Shown here one piece after another: positions 31,009 through 35,595 of a DNA stretch of 36,164 nucleotides. The translations under genes were made by a program, and so were the position numbers. The stretch spans positions 1 to 36,164 of the forward strand of contig JAMONS010000069.1 in assembly GCA_027065555.1 (NCBI GenBank), written 5' to 3'. The stretch comes from Hyphomicrobiales bacterium. GTDB lineage: Bacteria > Pseudomonadota > Alphaproteobacteria > Rhizobiales > Devosiaceae. The notes under the pieces are model-generated. The model was not told where the DNA came from. It was given only the letters and a program-made list of their open reading frames with translations, and ran no database searches. Position 1 is the stretch's first letter. Each line of letters starts with the position of its first letter.

Positions 31009-31269
31009 TTAGTTATTATTAGATAAAATATAAAGAACCCTGTAAATATCGAGTGTGTTATGCAATCCCATTTTTAACAAAATATTAGATTTATGCGCCT
31101 CTACTGTCCTATAACTGATGTCATACTCTCGAGCTATTTCTTTAGATGTTTTACTGTTAACGACTTCCTGAAGTATCTGTCGTTCTCTGCTAGTTATTCT
31201 TTTCAACCCTTGAATTGCAAACATAAGCTGCTCATCAGGTATAGTAATTGAAACAAAATTTTGTGGCAT
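31009..31269 (-). CDS. Single-domain LuxR/GerE-type DNA-binding protein
   Basis: An 86-aa protein that is essentially only a LuxR-type helix-turn-helix: ITSRERQILQEVVNSKTSKE followed by IAREYDISYRTVEAHKSNIL, then LKMGLHNTLDIYRVLYIL. It has no receiver or autoinducer domain. ATG 31269 follows AGGAG at ideal spacing; a longer frame from TTG 31311 is less likely. It is the last gene of the operon, 87 bases after tfuA. Small orphan LuxR regulators can work with another activator; here the BTAD protein at the operon's head is an obvious partner. Confidence 0.87.
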   Translation of the reverse strand: MPQNFVSITIPDEQLMFAIQGLKRITSRERQILQEVVNSKTSKEIAREYDISYRTVEAHKSNILLKMGLHNTLDIYRVLYILSNNN

Positions 31270-31356
31270 TAATTTCTCCTGTTTTTTCAGCTCTTTGCGG
31301 CTGTAAGACAAGAAGAAAATAAAAAGCGTTACACTAACGTTAATCTAATAAATTAT

Positions 31357-32079
31357 CTAACTATTTAATTGTGTTGTTTTATTTTTTAAATTATTTAGAG
31401 CAACTGTCCATGTGCGAGGCTGCTCCAGTTTCCACGAAATTTTCGTCTCAGAATTTTGTTGTGGAAGTTGCTTCATAAAATTAATAAGTTCAATTGCATC
31501 AATTTGTTTTTGACTGATAAAGTGTTTTTTATATTGTTTTTTCAGATAGTCTGCATTGGATAAACTAGATACTATTGCCTCAATGCTACGTTCTTTAAAG
31601 AAAGTTTTTCGTGCATTTTTTAACATCCTATCAGCCTGATCATGGTTAATACACTTACATTTTTGCATATGGGCAAGTGTTGCCTCAATATCTACTAATG
31701 CATCTGTAAAAGGTGGACTGCCTAACTCAGATGGCCCATGTAATAATGCAACAGCTGCATCATCGTCTAAACTCCCGTCAATGTAGGAATGAGCAATTTT
31801 CCCGATTGGAATCATGCCAAACTTGGCACATTCTGCAGCACGTAAGGCACCCATAGACGCAGCACCAACTACAATAATATCTTTTTGTAAGGCAAATAAT
31901 ATTTCTTTATGCCAAACTGAAGCAATAGCTTCAAAAACTCCATCAACTAAACCAATAACATTAGCACCATCTAAAACTGCTCGAGCCAAATCTCCATGGG
32001 CAGCAGGTGGTCTTAGTTCAATTGAATCAAAATCAATATCCGCACCATAAATACTGGAGCCTGCAAATAATATTTTCAT
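31357..32079 (-). CDS. TfuA-like protein (partner of YcaO)
   Basis: A 240-aa protein with the TfuA core: FAGSSIYGADIDF, IELRPPAAHGDLARAV, VIGLVDGVFEAIASVWHKEI, VVGAASMGALRAAECAKFGM and DDDAAVALLHGPSELG. The family is named from the trifolitoxin locus of Rhizobium; TfuA proteins act with YcaO enzymes to make backbone thioamides, shown for archaeal methyl-CoM reductase and for some bacterial peptides, probably by handling sulfur. The start overlaps the ycaO stop as ATGA, which supports a two-part enzyme. The C-terminal part (about 150-240) is less typical. Confidence 0.92.
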   Translation of the reverse strand: MKILFAGSSIYGADIDFDSIELRPPAAHGDLARAVLDGANVIGLVDGVFEAIASVWHKEILFALQKDIIVVGAASMGALRAAECAKFGMIPIGKIAHSYIDGSLDDDAAVALLHGPSELGSPPFTDALVDIEATLAHMQKCKCINHDQADRMLKNARKTFFKERSIEAIVSSLSNADYLKKQYKKHFISQKQIDAIELINFMKQLPQQNSETKISWKLEQPRTWTVALNNLKNKTTQLNS

Positions 32080-33329
32080 GCTGCTAACAAAACCTTCAAA
32101 GCTCTGATGTTAGGGCGCCAATTAATATTAGATTCACGGTCTTCAAGCATTGGAACAACCAATTTCATCACAGAAAAATCAAACTCATCACCACATAAAG
32201 GAAACGCAAAAACATCACTAATCCCAACTCTCACTAATGCACCAATTGTATTATTGAGAAGTTTGTTTAGTGAAGCATCAAGTGGCAAACCATTTATCAT
32301 TTTATTATCTGGAACTACAGCGAGCTCAAGTAACTCTACATGTTCACTTGCAGCATGTTGGCAATATTCATCTGGAATGATATCATCACGAGAACCAGCA
32401 ATTGAGGTTATTCTAGTTTGTGCGGCTTCCGTAATTGCACGAATAGCTGCCCGTGAGGCAATCGGGTGAGCGCCATAACCTGCAGCAAGGTCAAAATGTT
32501 TATACTCATGTTTTCCATTTTCGCCAATTATTGCCATAACACAGGGTACTCCTATATCACTAGTTTGATTAAACAGTCTTAATCTTAAGCCTGCATTTTC
32601 AACTTTCTGGCAAAGCTCACCTACCGCAACATCATTAAAGGTTACAGGGTTAATGAGTGTTTTAATTTGATCTTCTTTACTTTTCAAAGACCAAAGAGTT
32701 CCTGCATCACGTTCTATTAGCTCGCATAAACCATGAAAAATTGCTTCTTCATCGCAATTACCTGATGCTAGACCATTTGTTGATTTGCATATCCCAGGCA
32801 AATCATTATTTTCACCATCTATATTTACAGCATCAAGCGGAATAAGAACTTCTTCTTGCGTTAAAAGGTTTTTACCTTCAATCCATCGAAGTTTTTTATT
32901 GCGAAAAATTTCTTCACCAATCGGCAGAAGATATTTAATATCTACTAGAGGAAATCCCTGCTTAAATAACTCATCCATACTTTTAACTTTTTTCGTTACA
33001 AGTGGATTTTCGGCAATAGCAAACTCAACTGCTTCCATAACAGCAGAAGCACAAGCCGCATCTTTAGTAAGACCCTTGCCTTGATTATTGGCAAGGGTTT
33101 TAGAGTTAGGTCGAAAAGCAGCAAAACAAGGGATACCAATTCGATCCAATCCAGTTTGATCAGCAATTCGGGTAATACCTAGTTGTTCAAAAACTAACTT
33201 TGCTCGAGTGACTGTTTCATCTGGTGATATTATGCGGTCTGAATATTGAGTTGCAGTGTTTAATTTTTGGGTGCCTTTTTTCAACGAAAAACTACTATCA
33301 ACCAAGAAGCACGTAATTATGGATTTCAT
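32076..33329 (-). CDS. YcaO-domain ATP-dependent cyclodehydratase/thioamide synthase
   Basis: A 417-aa YcaO enzyme, which activates peptide-bond oxygen with ATP. The N-terminal half has TRIADQTGLDRIGIPCFAAF and the ATP-binding helix ASAVMEAVEFAIAE (about 93-106). Later come SGNCDEEAIFHGLCELIERD (about residue 200) and SRAAIRAITEAAQTRITSIAG. The end, MLEDRESNINWRPNIRALKV, lacks the PxPxP tail seen in azoline-forming YcaO proteins that need an E1-like partner. With TfuA overlapping downstream, thioamidation is the most likely chemistry. Start ATG 33329 lies eight bases after the 61-aa gene; its ribosome binding site is weak, so coupling is likely. Confidence 0.92.
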   Translation of the reverse strand: MKSIITCFLVDSSFSLKKGTQKLNTATQYSDRIISPDETVTRAKLVFEQLGITRIADQTGLDRIGIPCFAAFRPNSKTLANNQGKGLTKDAACASAVMEAVEFAIAENPLVTKKVKSMDELFKQGFPLVDIKYLLPIGEEIFRNKKLRWIEGKNLLTQEEVLIPLDAVNIDGENNDLPGICKSTNGLASGNCDEEAIFHGLCELIERDAGTLWSLKSKEDQIKTLINPVTFNDVAVGELCQKVENAGLRLRLFNQTSDIGVPCVMAIIGENGKHEYKHFDLAAGYGAHPIASRAAIRAITEAAQTRITSIAGSRDDIIPDEYCQHAASEHVELLELAVVPDNKMINGLPLDASLNKLLNNTIGALVRVGISDVFAFPLCGDEFDFSVMKLVVPMLEDRESNINWRPNIRALKVLLAA

Positions 33330-33337
33330 CAGCTTTA

Positions 33338-33523
33338 TTAAGCAGTATTAATTTGAAGTGCAATATGTGCGGCTAAGCAAGATATAGAAGAAATGAATTT
33401 TTCCTTTCTTTTTCCACTAAATCTAAGAGACGACAATCTAATTTCTTCCCTTTTACCTGTGCGAGAATCGTGAATATGAATAACATTCTCATGTTGAGTA
33501 TAACTAATACTAATATTTTTCAT
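33338..33523 (-). CDS. 61-aa protein, candidate YcaO-TfuA substrate or partner
   Basis: A small basic protein starting MKNISISYTQHENVIHIHDS, with RTGKREEIRLSSLRFSGKRK and the end SSISCLAAHIALQINTA. AAGGAG lies seven bases before ATG 33523, the best ribosome binding site in the operon, so it is probably made in excess over its neighbours. It is eight bases before ycaO. It has one Cys and no signal peptide or double-Gly leader cleavage site. I recognise no family. It might be the peptide modified by YcaO-TfuA, or a small recognition subunit. Confidence 0.7.
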   Translation of the reverse strand: MKNISISYTQHENVIHIHDSRTGKREEIRLSSLRFSGKRKEKFISSISCLAAHIALQINTA

Positions 33524-33600
33524 TATTATCTCCTTTAAAAGAGACATTATAAAAGCGGTTTTATTAAAGCACATCAGTATTAATTGGTAACAATGAATAC

Positions 33601-35595
33601 CTAGTCAAAACCTGCTAGATATAGAGCAGTTTTATAATGACTAACATCATCATGATTACTCATAGGAATCATTATTTCCCAATATTCAATTTTAAAATCA
33701 GGGTATTCAAGCAAATAATCATTTTTAAAATTTCTAGCTTCTTCTCCATTACCTAACATTGCATGACAAGCTGCAACCAAGCGCAAATTTGAAGGAACTA
33801 ATAATTTTACTTTGGATATTAAGCCCAAGGCCTCTTGATATTTTCCAAGAAAAAATTTACTACAACTCTGCATCCAATAATAACAGTCAGGCGGCAAAGG
33901 ATTAAGCTTCATTGCTAGATTGACTTGCTTAAGAGCCTCGTCATGTTGTCCATTATGACAAAATATATCCGCTTTGTGAGCAATTATATCTGCGTGATAC
34001 GGGGCAAAAGAGGAAGCAAGTGAAGTGCTTTCTCTTGCACCCTCAATATCACCTAAATATAGTTGAGCCACCCCCATCTCCCAATGTCCGCCTGGTATTG
34101 TTGGGTCTTTTTTAATAATATTGCTTGCCATGTGCTTCGCTTTCAAAAGCAATTCATGATCAGGGCGTCCTAAAAGAAACCACTCAAGATGATAAGTTCT
34201 AGCTAACATTTGTTGAGCTAAATAAAATTCTGGAAACAGTTTCAACGCATGCTTAAGTGTTTTTCGTGCAGCACGAATATTTGGCAAATCGCCTATACTC
34301 AATCTCTCTTTTCCTATCAAATAAAAGGTATAGGCATCGGCGGAGCCAGTATTGCGAAAATTGGAAAGGACATAACGGTCAATTTTCAACCCAATCATAT
34401 TTATTACAGATTGAACTATATCGGTATAACTTTTACGAAACACATCAGGGGTTAAAAGAACTTCCTCCATCATCAAAACCTCTCCGCTTGATACAGAAGT
34501 CAATTTTATCAAAAGTCTCTTTTCTTTTTTATCCAAATAAGCATTATCTGGCACCAAGTTCGTTGAAATAATATAATCAACATCAAGAATTTGCTGCGTT
34601 TGTAAATGTTCTAATTTTATAAACTGCCTTGCAGTGTGCGGGGCAAGGACAACAAAATTATGTGTTTGGCATAAAGCTAAAGTCATATCTTCAATAACAA
34701 AATTTGCTAATTCATAATCTGAGGTCGCTGATTTATTCGAGCCAGAGCCTAGCGGAAGCAATAACAAACGAGGAATAGGATTATCATTGATTTTGCTTTT
34801 CTCTTCTGAATGAAAGTTTCTATTATCGCTTGGCAACTCATTGTTAGCAACAGTTGCAGAAAGAAAGGAATATTTGTGTTGAAGGTGTGGGGTCATCTCG
34901 GGGAATAAACGTGCAATCAGTTTAATGGTTGAAGTTTTAGGGGCTATTTGCAGATCCTCATTTAGTTTTTGTGCAAACTCCTCAAAGTGCCGTTGCGCCC
35001 TTTTATATTCACCCCTTCTAGAAAGAAGTAAAATGAGAGATTGCAAAACTTCTTCATTATAAGGATGAATAGAAAATAAATATTCTAGTGCTTTAATTCC
35101 CTCACTTCCACCTATATGCAACGCTCCATCAAGCGCAATTTGCAAAAACCGATTTGAATAATTCTGGCGTTGTATCAGAAGCCATTTACTCAAATCTTCT
35201 CCTAAGTTATCACCCAGTCCTTGTAAGAATTCTTTACCAAAACTAACAACATAATCTATCAATTCATCTGGCTTAGTTAGCTTATCAATTGATAGAAATT
35301 TACAAAGATCGCATGAAATAGAACTTACCAAAGCTAGTTCTTTATAATCTGTTTTAATAAACTCAAATGAATTTTGTTTTTCAAAGCAACGTATTCTTGT
35401 CAACAATTGTCGTAAATTCAAATTAGCTAAATCAGTGGTGCGATTTTCCCAAAGACAGCCCGCTAACATAGATCGTCTTACAGACCCTCCATACTTAATT
35501 AAAAGCAATGCCACCATAATATAGGCTTTTTCTGGCAACCCTTGAAGAGATTGGTCACCATTCTTAATACAAGGAAACCCAAATAAATGAAACAC
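33601..35595 (-). CDS. BTAD/SARP-like transcriptional regulator with TPR domain
   Basis: A 664-aa cytoplasmic regulator. Residues about 1-95 form an OmpR/SARP-type winged helix (LFGFPCIKNGDQSLQGLPEK; RRSMLAGCLWENRTTDLANL; NLRQLLTRIR). A bacterial transcriptional activator domain follows at about 105-240 (ALEYLFSIHPYNEEVLQSLI; RRGEYKRAQRHFEEFAQKL). The middle (about 275-400) resembles the FlgO/CyaA-regulator-like domain often found with it, and TPR helices fill about 420-650. The start is GTG 35595 preceded by GGGGG. It heads the YcaO-TfuA operon, 77 bases before the 61-aa gene, and likely activates it. Confidence 0.88.
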   Translation of the reverse strand: MFHLFGFPCIKNGDQSLQGLPEKAYIMVALLLIKYGGSVRRSMLAGCLWENRTTDLANLNLRQLLTRIRCFEKQNSFEFIKTDYKELALVSSISCDLCKFLSIDKLTKPDELIDYVVSFGKEFLQGLGDNLGEDLSKWLLIQRQNYSNRFLQIALDGALHIGGSEGIKALEYLFSIHPYNEEVLQSLILLLSRRGEYKRAQRHFEEFAQKLNEDLQIAPKTSTIKLIARLFPEMTPHLQHKYSFLSATVANNELPSDNRNFHSEEKSKINDNPIPRLLLLPLGSGSNKSATSDYELANFVIEDMTLALCQTHNFVVLAPHTARQFIKLEHLQTQQILDVDYIISTNLVPDNAYLDKKEKRLLIKLTSVSSGEVLMMEEVLLTPDVFRKSYTDIVQSVINMIGLKIDRYVLSNFRNTGSADAYTFYLIGKERLSIGDLPNIRAARKTLKHALKLFPEFYLAQQMLARTYHLEWFLLGRPDHELLLKAKHMASNIIKKDPTIPGGHWEMGVAQLYLGDIEGARESTSLASSFAPYHADIIAHKADIFCHNGQHDEALKQVNLAMKLNPLPPDCYYWMQSCSKFFLGKYQEALGLISKVKLLVPSNLRLVAACHAMLGNGEEARNFKNDYLLEYPDFKIEYWEIMIPMSNHDDVSHYKTALYLAGFD

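Follow-up and report, generated by a model that had tools for sequence, protein, structure and literature searches.

A putative precursor peptide gene preceding the ycaO-tfuA pair in Devosiaceae and its counterparts in Rhizobiaceae

Organization of the ycaO-tfuA Operon

The DNA considered here (referred to as the window) is a stretch of 36,164 nucleotides from a Hyphomicrobiales bacterium of the family Devosiaceae, and it represents one contig of a 2.06-Mb draft genome. On its minus strand, a BTAD/TPR regulator, a small gene, ycaO, tfuA and a luxR-type gene follow one another in this order, with an overlap of 4 bases between ycaO and tfuA, both of whose reading frames are open. The features of this operon are as follows.

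33601-35595, minus strand: regulator-like protein of 664 aa with BTAD and TPR repeats, kept directly upstream of the small gene
33530-33536, minus strand: ribosome binding site AAAGGAG, 6 bases before the ATG of the small gene
33338-33523 (stop included), minus strand: small gene, putative YcaO-TfuA precursor peptide of 61 aa (ORF, homologues)
32076-33329, minus strand: ycaO, 417 aa (Pfam YcaO, E 3.6e-58)
31357-32079, minus strand: tfuA, 240 aa (Pfam TfuA, E 5.7e-39)
31009-31311, minus strand: small LuxR-type (GerE) HTH protein, downstream of tfuA

By sequence, the nearest solved structures for YcaO and TfuA are 6pe3 (MJ1094, archaeal; E 1.3e-28) and 6xp8 (E 1.9e-22), respectively. The NCBIfam models nearest to the pair are those for the thioamidation of McrA glycine, viz. 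TIGR03266 for YcaO and NF033432 for TfuA, and the scores of both proteins (206.5 and 156 bits) lie below the equivalog cut-offs of these models (365 and 235.2 bits). The YcaO protein similarly falls short of the cut-off for the azoline-forming SagD-type cyclodehydratases (TIGR03604; 102.5 vs. 219.25 bits).

The small gene starts with the ATG at 33521-33523 and its stop codon is at 33338-33340. A longer reading of 78 aa is available in the same frame from the ATG at 33574, but the 61-aa start is preferred because the ribosome site, which is part of the upstream sequence ttttAAAGGAGataataATG, belongs to it. No comparable site precedes ycaO or the luxR-type gene, the regulator has a GGGGG stretch, and tfuA has GAAGG 13 bases upstream. 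The preliminary description of this DNA had credited the small gene with the best ribosome binding site of the operon, and this holds upon inspection of the five starts; the spacing of eight bases that it gave is also exact (33330-33337, from the stop of the small gene to the ycaO ATG). The 61-aa ORF is a real protein-coding gene as originally written, which is confirmed by its ribosome site and its homologues. A homologue from the same genus, matching at 44% over 55 aa (E 2.4e-8), occupies the same operon position, and in each of the six pairwise comparisons among the four window-clade genes described below, conservation is lowest at the third codon position, a pattern expected of protein-coding sequence. 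No credible match for the 61-aa protein was found in Pfam or NCBIfam.

Conserved and Variable Parts of the Window-Type Small Protein

The nearest homologues of the small protein are encoded at three loci, L109 (same genus as the window), L110 and L111, and the window clade is thus a small one of four sequences. The small gene changes fastest in the operon. In the comparison with L109 it retains 44%, as against 71% for YcaO, 74% for TfuA, 74% for the LuxR-type protein and 56% for the regulator, and in that with L110 the corresponding values are 34, 62, 65, 60 and 47%. Three parts can be distinguished in the protein.

33434-33523, minus strand: residues 1-30, conserved N-terminal part and putative leader (alignment, AF2)
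33377-33433, minus strand: residues 31-49, basic variable linker, including Cys49 (alignment)
33341-33376, minus strand: residues 50-61, LAAHIALQINTA, putative core module (alignment, repeat in L111)
33365-33373, minus strand: codons of A51-A52-H53, invariant in 4/4 window-clade genes and in both L111 repeats

In the AF2 model, residues 1-30 of the window protein form a three-stranded beta meander (strands 4-9, 14-19 and 25-29), and all four sequences share the hairpin motif I...I.D..TGK.E. Within this small clade (n = 4), eight residues of the hairpin are invariant (M1, I4, I17, D19, T22, G23, K24 and E26), as is the AAH of the tail, and the linker has no invariant residue; the mean pairwise identity is 0.41 for residues 1-30, 0.19 for the linker and 0.38 for the tail. 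The AAH-bearing tails read LAAHIALQINTA in the window, LAAHVLIKLSTT in L109 and IAAHVWTRIPTAKAAQ in L110. In L111 the tail module is present in two copies, VAAHVLYRESPG-IAAHVLYRDTPIKAA, both of the form V/I-AAHVLYR-E/D-S/T-P. An exact repeat as long as the seven residues AAHVLYR was seen in none of 20,000 shuffles of this protein (the longest, observed three times, was of 6 residues). Compared over 11 codons, the copies are identical in 24 of 33 bases. All differences within AAHVLYR are synonymous, so that it is the protein sequence of the repeat that has been preserved, which is what two core copies would lead one to expect. The tfuA frame of the metagenome-assembled genome with this duplicated module (L047/L111) contains an in-frame TAG, reflecting either sequencing error or decay.

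A basic middle followed by a Ser/Cys/Ala/His-containing tail had been noted in the preliminary description, and the linker is both basic and variable. The same description had named an alignment of homologues taken from next to YcaO-TfuA pairs as the means of telling a precursor from a partner protein, the latter being expected to show even conservation along its whole length. The alignment of the four sequences shows a conserved leader-like part, a variable linker and a conserved tail module that is repeated in one of them, and conservation in this clade is uneven. Of the features that had been counted against a precursor, the single Cys is indeed present, but it carries less weight now as none of the three nearest homologues has a Cys at position 49 (they have Q, E or G instead), and the N-terminal hairpin is predicted as described, but it coincides with the conserved leader-like part, which weakens the doubt. 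A Cys-based reading (an azoline or a Cys-derived core) is ruled out by the same lack of conservation of Cys49.

Distribution of the Small Gene and Its Linkage to tfuA

Of the 136 genomes of the family, 25 have TfuA, and so do 21 of 385 genomes sampled from the class, the window's own genome being included in both. A single-sequence search with the small protein matched 2 of 61 relatives (the window included), and among the 385 class genomes the window itself was the sole match; as such searches find few homologues, the distribution was followed via TfuA and YcaO. Twenty-eight loci of the family were fetched and, upon omission of L084, where the contig ends inside tfuA and no ycaO is present, 27 remained besides the window. 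In 26 of these the regulator immediately precedes ycaO in the same orientation, and the remaining one (L082) begins at a contig edge. Inspected by eye, each of the 26 complete regulator-ycaO gaps contains a small ORF, and at L082 the end of such an ORF is visible; as these counts have no chance control behind them, the case rests on sequence conservation. The layout of a small gene followed by ycaO, on which the earlier proposal of a precursor had drawn, is one that recurs in the Devosiaceae ycaO-tfuA loci.

The gap ORFs of the 27 loci were sorted by eye into seven that resemble the window (type A), 14 plus the partial L082 that belong to a second family of about 72 aa, beginning with MRYVIIGQKDS... 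and relatives (type B), and five that are neither. The latter (L059, L063, L065, L071 and L073) have no recognisable hairpin. Those of L063, L065, L071 and L073 end in PRIPSRKFF plus two residues, and they are possibly a third type of precursor. By eye, no second recurrent small ORF was seen between the regulator and ycaO in the Devosiaceae loci. A luxR-type gene follows tfuA in eight of the 27 loci, viz. all seven of type A and L059, and it is absent from the other 19.

Beyond the family, 24 class loci (L085-L108) received a cursory look. One of them (L086, 4658-5074, reverse complement) contains, upstream of another ycaO-tfuA pair, a 138-aa ORF with five copies of DDSQRHAANFIGT, which is a different and strongly repetitive candidate precursor. 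A candidate of yet another family comes from a metagenome-assembled genome of the Alphaproteobacteria (L157, 5540-5824), where a 94-aa ORF preceding ycaO has GEGTDGI-like units repeated in its tail. A scan of named genomes gave at least 80 ycaO loci. Among those listed, the regulator is directly upstream in 26, all of which have a small ORF in the gap (some of 31-33 aa with TTG starts); the 54 of 80 listed loci that have no regulator directly upstream were left out of the systematic count of small genes. Loci with both the regulator and a small ORF include those of Devosia, Antarcticirhabdus, Agrobacterium, Rhizobium and Neorhizobium and one metagenome-assembled genome labelled Gammaproteobacteria (L110), and several of the named-genome loci are the same operons as in the Devosiaceae set. 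In an Aureimonas locus (L121), no small gene of this kind precedes ycaO.

Profile searches of the 136 family genomes gave eight strong matches and a weak one (E 0.0086) for type A, and 14 strong matches and a weak one (E 0.006) for type B. All of the strong matches are in tfuA-bearing genomes; the two weak ones are not, and they look like chance. These searches are partly circular, because most of the strong matches are themselves rows of the alignments (8/8 for type A and 9/14 for type B), and their informative part is the absence elsewhere: neither profile found a clear copy of the small gene in the 111 Devosiaceae genomes that lack tfuA. In an order-wide profile search (347 genomes), three weak matches (E 8e-4 to 6e-3) were obtained beyond three Devosiaceae; their surroundings gave no match to ycaO, tfuA or the regulator, and they were taken as chance. 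Homologues lying away from any ycaO or tfuA had been named earlier as evidence that would count against a precursor. Within the Devosiaceae no clear one came to light in the 111 tfuA-less genomes, but there are counter-cases in the rhizobia (see below). Across relatives, the conserved gene is thus found beside an intact ycaO-tfuA pair with rhizobial exceptions.

The neighbouring genes were clustered for 32 loci (ORFs of at least 80 aa, families present in at least three loci, judged by eye; L060 and L112 are the same operon). The recurring neighbours are the regulator, ycaO, tfuA, the luxR-type gene (seven loci), antisense frames and some genes shared among Rhizobiaceae. A family of ABC-type ATPases was found in five of the 32 loci, kilobases off and at differing distances, and no protease or transporter/exporter was seen at a fixed place beside the operon in this set.

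Rhizobial Counterparts of the Type B Family

In Rhizobiaceae, the same slot before ycaO is occupied by a protein of about 70-115 aa, with an N-terminus of the form VVVIG.PGE.GLWLADLDAGTVTPL and a tail such as VDLAVAVSSA..VFSGHVDG or similar. Of 323 plasmid records with a YcaO match, 25 were listed and 11 of these were opened, and five more were opened from another set of 17 records. The small protein of 115 aa encoded by the Rhizobium rhizogenes plasmid pC5.7c carries the tail module three times; its best 18-residue self-match has 11 identities, in comparison to at most nine in 1,000 shuffles. Small genes are found in tandem at two loci, L231 and L232, and in Allorhizobium pseudoryzae the two precede ycaO. 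At L227, the first part of the small gene alone was recognised. In two rhizobial records the upstream regulator is annotated as a 'peptide antibiotic resistance protein'.

The exceptions to the linkage with tfuA are found in this group. At L218 and L221 (Sinorhizobium plasmids), the regulator, the small gene and ycaO are present and there is no TfuA match within 3.5 kb on either side, so that ycaO is without an adjoining TfuA in two of the 11 plasmid loci opened. On a Rhizobium tumorigenes plasmid (L232, 2000-2716), the regulator is followed by two tandem homologues of the small gene; the fetched 5 kb gave no match to ycaO, and TfuA is matched nowhere on this plasmid, which is one replicon of the strain.

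Two further observations were made at these loci. Plasmid pC5.7c (L217/L226) has two successive ycaO operons. In the first, the regulator is accompanied by a 72-aa small gene and ycaO, and tfuA is represented by no more than a short match; the second has the small gene for the 115-aa protein with three repeats, together with ycaO and tfuA. A gene for an iron-containing redox enzyme lies nearby. Additionally, a further conserved small protein is encoded downstream of ycaO/tfuA at L216 (5477-5707), L221 (4798-5031) and L222 (5517-5765); when ORFs of at least 80 aa were clustered, a family with this position was found at five rhizobial loci, and it was not seen to recur in the Devosiaceae loci.

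The dN/dS values for type B genes are 0.13 and 0.03 in two Devosia pairs and 0.12 in one Rhizobiaceae pair, and by these sequence comparisons the type B small protein is under purifying selection at the protein level. In the alignment of 37 type B sequences conservation is uneven, the mean column entropy of the successive thirds being 1.51, 2.28 and 1.93, and a His is present within the last 16 residues of 22 of the 37 proteins.

Relationship of the Leaders to Each Other and to Known Folds

When the type A and type B profiles were compared by hhalign, their hairpins aligned in register over about residues 1-30. This match is weak (E 0.011-0.017, probability 2.7-3.8%, score 16.1), but none of 100 column-shuffled type A profiles reached its score. 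AF2 predicts three strands and two short helices for type A (mean pLDDT 70) and strands 4-8, 15-19 and 24-28 for type B (mean pLDDT 62, falling below 50 in the tail; in the rhizobial type B model residues 51-60 and 63-74 are under 50). The same three strands, at about 4-9, 14-19 and 24-29, are thus predicted in both families by models of moderate confidence, and it is likely that the two have a leader in common.

Profile comparison with PqqD gave a score of 15.2 for type B, which was reached by one of 100 column shuffles, and of 10.5 for type A, whereas a positive control consisting of two PqqD halves scored 133.9. A distant relation of the leader to the RRE fold is entertained because the score of type B with PqqD is near that of type B with type A (16.1), and the signal for it is a faint one. 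The first three PDB matches by Foldseek are to the lasso protein TbiB1 (E 0.10-0.14, probability 0.47-0.63). At E ≤ 10, no PqqD/RRE match was obtained for 21 type B members against Pfam or for nine window-type members against NCBIfam, in searches where the HMMER filters drop most weak matches. Four of the 21 type B members matched a hepatitis C virus domain weakly (best E 4e-4, below the cut-off), which was taken as chance.

Proposed Function and Alternative Explanations

Based upon these results, the small gene likely encodes the precursor of a thioamidated RiPP (ribosomally made, post-translationally modified peptide), with a folded leader and an AAH core. The gene order, the pattern of conservation and the repeats are directly seen in the analysis. 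The window clade (n = 4) and the rhizobial repeats both fit the scheme of a conserved leader followed by a core that varies or is repeated, and the earlier proposal that the small gene is a YcaO-TfuA precursor is now supported by its conserved hairpin, its variable linker and the repeated tail module of one homologue. Residues 1-30 would fold into a small beta sheet and, as the leader, guide the substrate to YcaO-TfuA, and one or more thioamides would be placed in the C-terminal AAH module. In this step, YcaO would activate a backbone amide with ATP and TfuA would supply the sulfide, as papers on these families describe; in excerpts of PMC8120280 and PMC13063428, TfuA helps the sulfide to arrive, in some cases from a ThiS-like carrier. 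A ThiS gene, present on contig C37 of the same genome, could be the sulfur source. The module might then be released by ordinary cellular peptidases, no recurrent protease being found beside the operon, and the BTAD/TPR regulator together with, in the window-type operons, the LuxR-type protein may control expression. Several observations go against this interpretation: no leader cleavage motif was noted in the small protein, no protease or exporter recurs at a fixed position next to the operon, the AAH module does not vary within the window clade but is conserved there, five Devosiaceae gap ORFs have no recognisable hairpin, L121 has no such gene, some rhizobial copies occur without TfuA, and the match between the window-type and rhizobial hairpins is weak.

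The strongest structural rival sees in the small protein a stand-alone recognition element (RRE/PqqD-like), which presents another substrate to YcaO-TfuA, because its predicted strands are followed by helices and a lasso RRE protein comes first in Foldseek. Three strands and then helices is the order of elements in an RRE. The leading TbiB1 match (E about 0.1) and the type B score of 15.2 against PqqD, as high as which only one in 100 column shuffles came, are consistent with this possibility, but it leaves the tail modules that are repeated two and three times unexplained, the families of Pfam and NCBIfam gave no PqqD/RRE match, the window-type profile scores 10.5 with PqqD, and by eye no second small ORF recurs between the regulator and ycaO. 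We regard this explanation as quite improbable. It is unlikely, though somewhat less so, that the small protein is thioamidated in its tail and yet kept whole, like McrA or uL16. Repeats of the module and tandem genes fit the release of several copies of a product, and the small gene diverges fast; on the other side stand the predicted folding of the N-terminal part, the lack of a protease or exporter recurring beside the operon, and a precedent for protein-level thioamidation (excerpts of PMC13063428).

A regulatory or coupling role for the ORF, e.g., as an inhibitor of the BTAD/TPR regulator or mainly in opening the ycaO start, would account for the absence of a ribosome site of ycaO's own, as ycaO starts 8 bases past the stop of the small gene, and for the adjacency of the regulator gene, next to which two rhizobial small genes lie without ycaO or TfuA. 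The conserved AAH, the tail repeats and the purifying selection indicated by dN/dS of 0.03-0.13 in three type B pairs make such a role very unlikely. ThiS is similar in length to the small protein. Certain YcaO enzymes work with a ThiS homologue in addition to TfuA, as stated in the available text of PMC13063428, and the small protein could in principle be such a carrier of sulfur. This was ruled out, its probability being negligible: a terminal Gly-Gly is found in 0/37 type B and 0/9 type A proteins, no ThiS model matches, and the genome has a separate ThiS.

With the small gene taken as a precursor, the metal-site chemistry of X-X-His leads to a further idea, which is speculative and in our estimate doubtful. 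Histidine-module thioamide peptides (with AAH as the module in the window clade and, frequently, FSGH or HEG in the rhizobia), released as short peptides with an N-terminal X-X-His and an adjoining thioamide, might bind copper or nickel and be the native substrate still missing for the rhizobial loci from which TfuA is named.

Comparison with Known Systems and Significance

The thiovarsolin system of Streptomyces varsoviensis (varA-varY-varT) likewise combines a short precursor with ycaO and tfuA. According to the accessible parts of PMC6511847, these three genes alone suffice for thiovarsolin B, varA contains repeated cores, precursors of the family range from non-repeating to five repeats, and the cluster has no specific protease. 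In both systems the number of core copies varies among relatives (one to five in the thiovarsolins, from the same parts of that source). The thiovarsolin core is APR/GPR, in contrast to the AAH-centred module here, in which APR/GPR is not found, and a BTAD/TPR regulator and an alphaproteobacterial host also set the present operon apart. In the window, only regulators accompany the ycaO-tfuA pair and the additional var genes are absent; the latter were also not seen among the recurring neighbours (clusters judged by eye), one rhizobial locus having the nearby iron-containing redox enzyme gene. The Std-type YcaO-TfuA RiPP of Streptomyces thermodiastaticus (SNKEWQE core) similarly has a short precursor with a conserved C-terminal motif; its cluster contains MNIO, RRE partner, carbamoyltransferase/peptidase and permease genes, unlike the window operon with its regulators only (excerpts of PMC13174530, where four characterised classes are counted besides its own). 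In the case of the McrA-glycine thioamidation pair, whose models are nearest here but with scores below the equivalog cut-offs, the substrate is a large enzyme.

The same enzyme pair is found in the rhizobial tfuA loci and in the proteobacterial TfuA clusters that were mined by a 2021 study (PMC8120280). From the available sections of that paper, over 500 clusters came from Rhizobium, precursors were predicted in bulk, and all YcaO-TfuA peptides known in 2021 were from Actinobacteria although most clusters were proteobacterial. Its main text contains no occurrence of Devosia or BTAD, and its supplements may list these peptides. In 2015, the substrates of TfuA-associated YcaOs were described as then unknown in a paper that cites the 1996 tfuA work (PMC4603692, in part). 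Among the papers listed by the literature searches, none joins Devosia or BTAD with TfuA, and while the thioamide-peptide kind is known, the small-gene family reported here looks to be uncharacterised. It provides a concrete candidate family of substrates for YcaO-TfuA in Devosiaceae and Rhizobiaceae, with a proposed boundary between leader and core and a prediction of the motif that is modified. The operon is minimal, and three genes would be enough for a test in E. coli.
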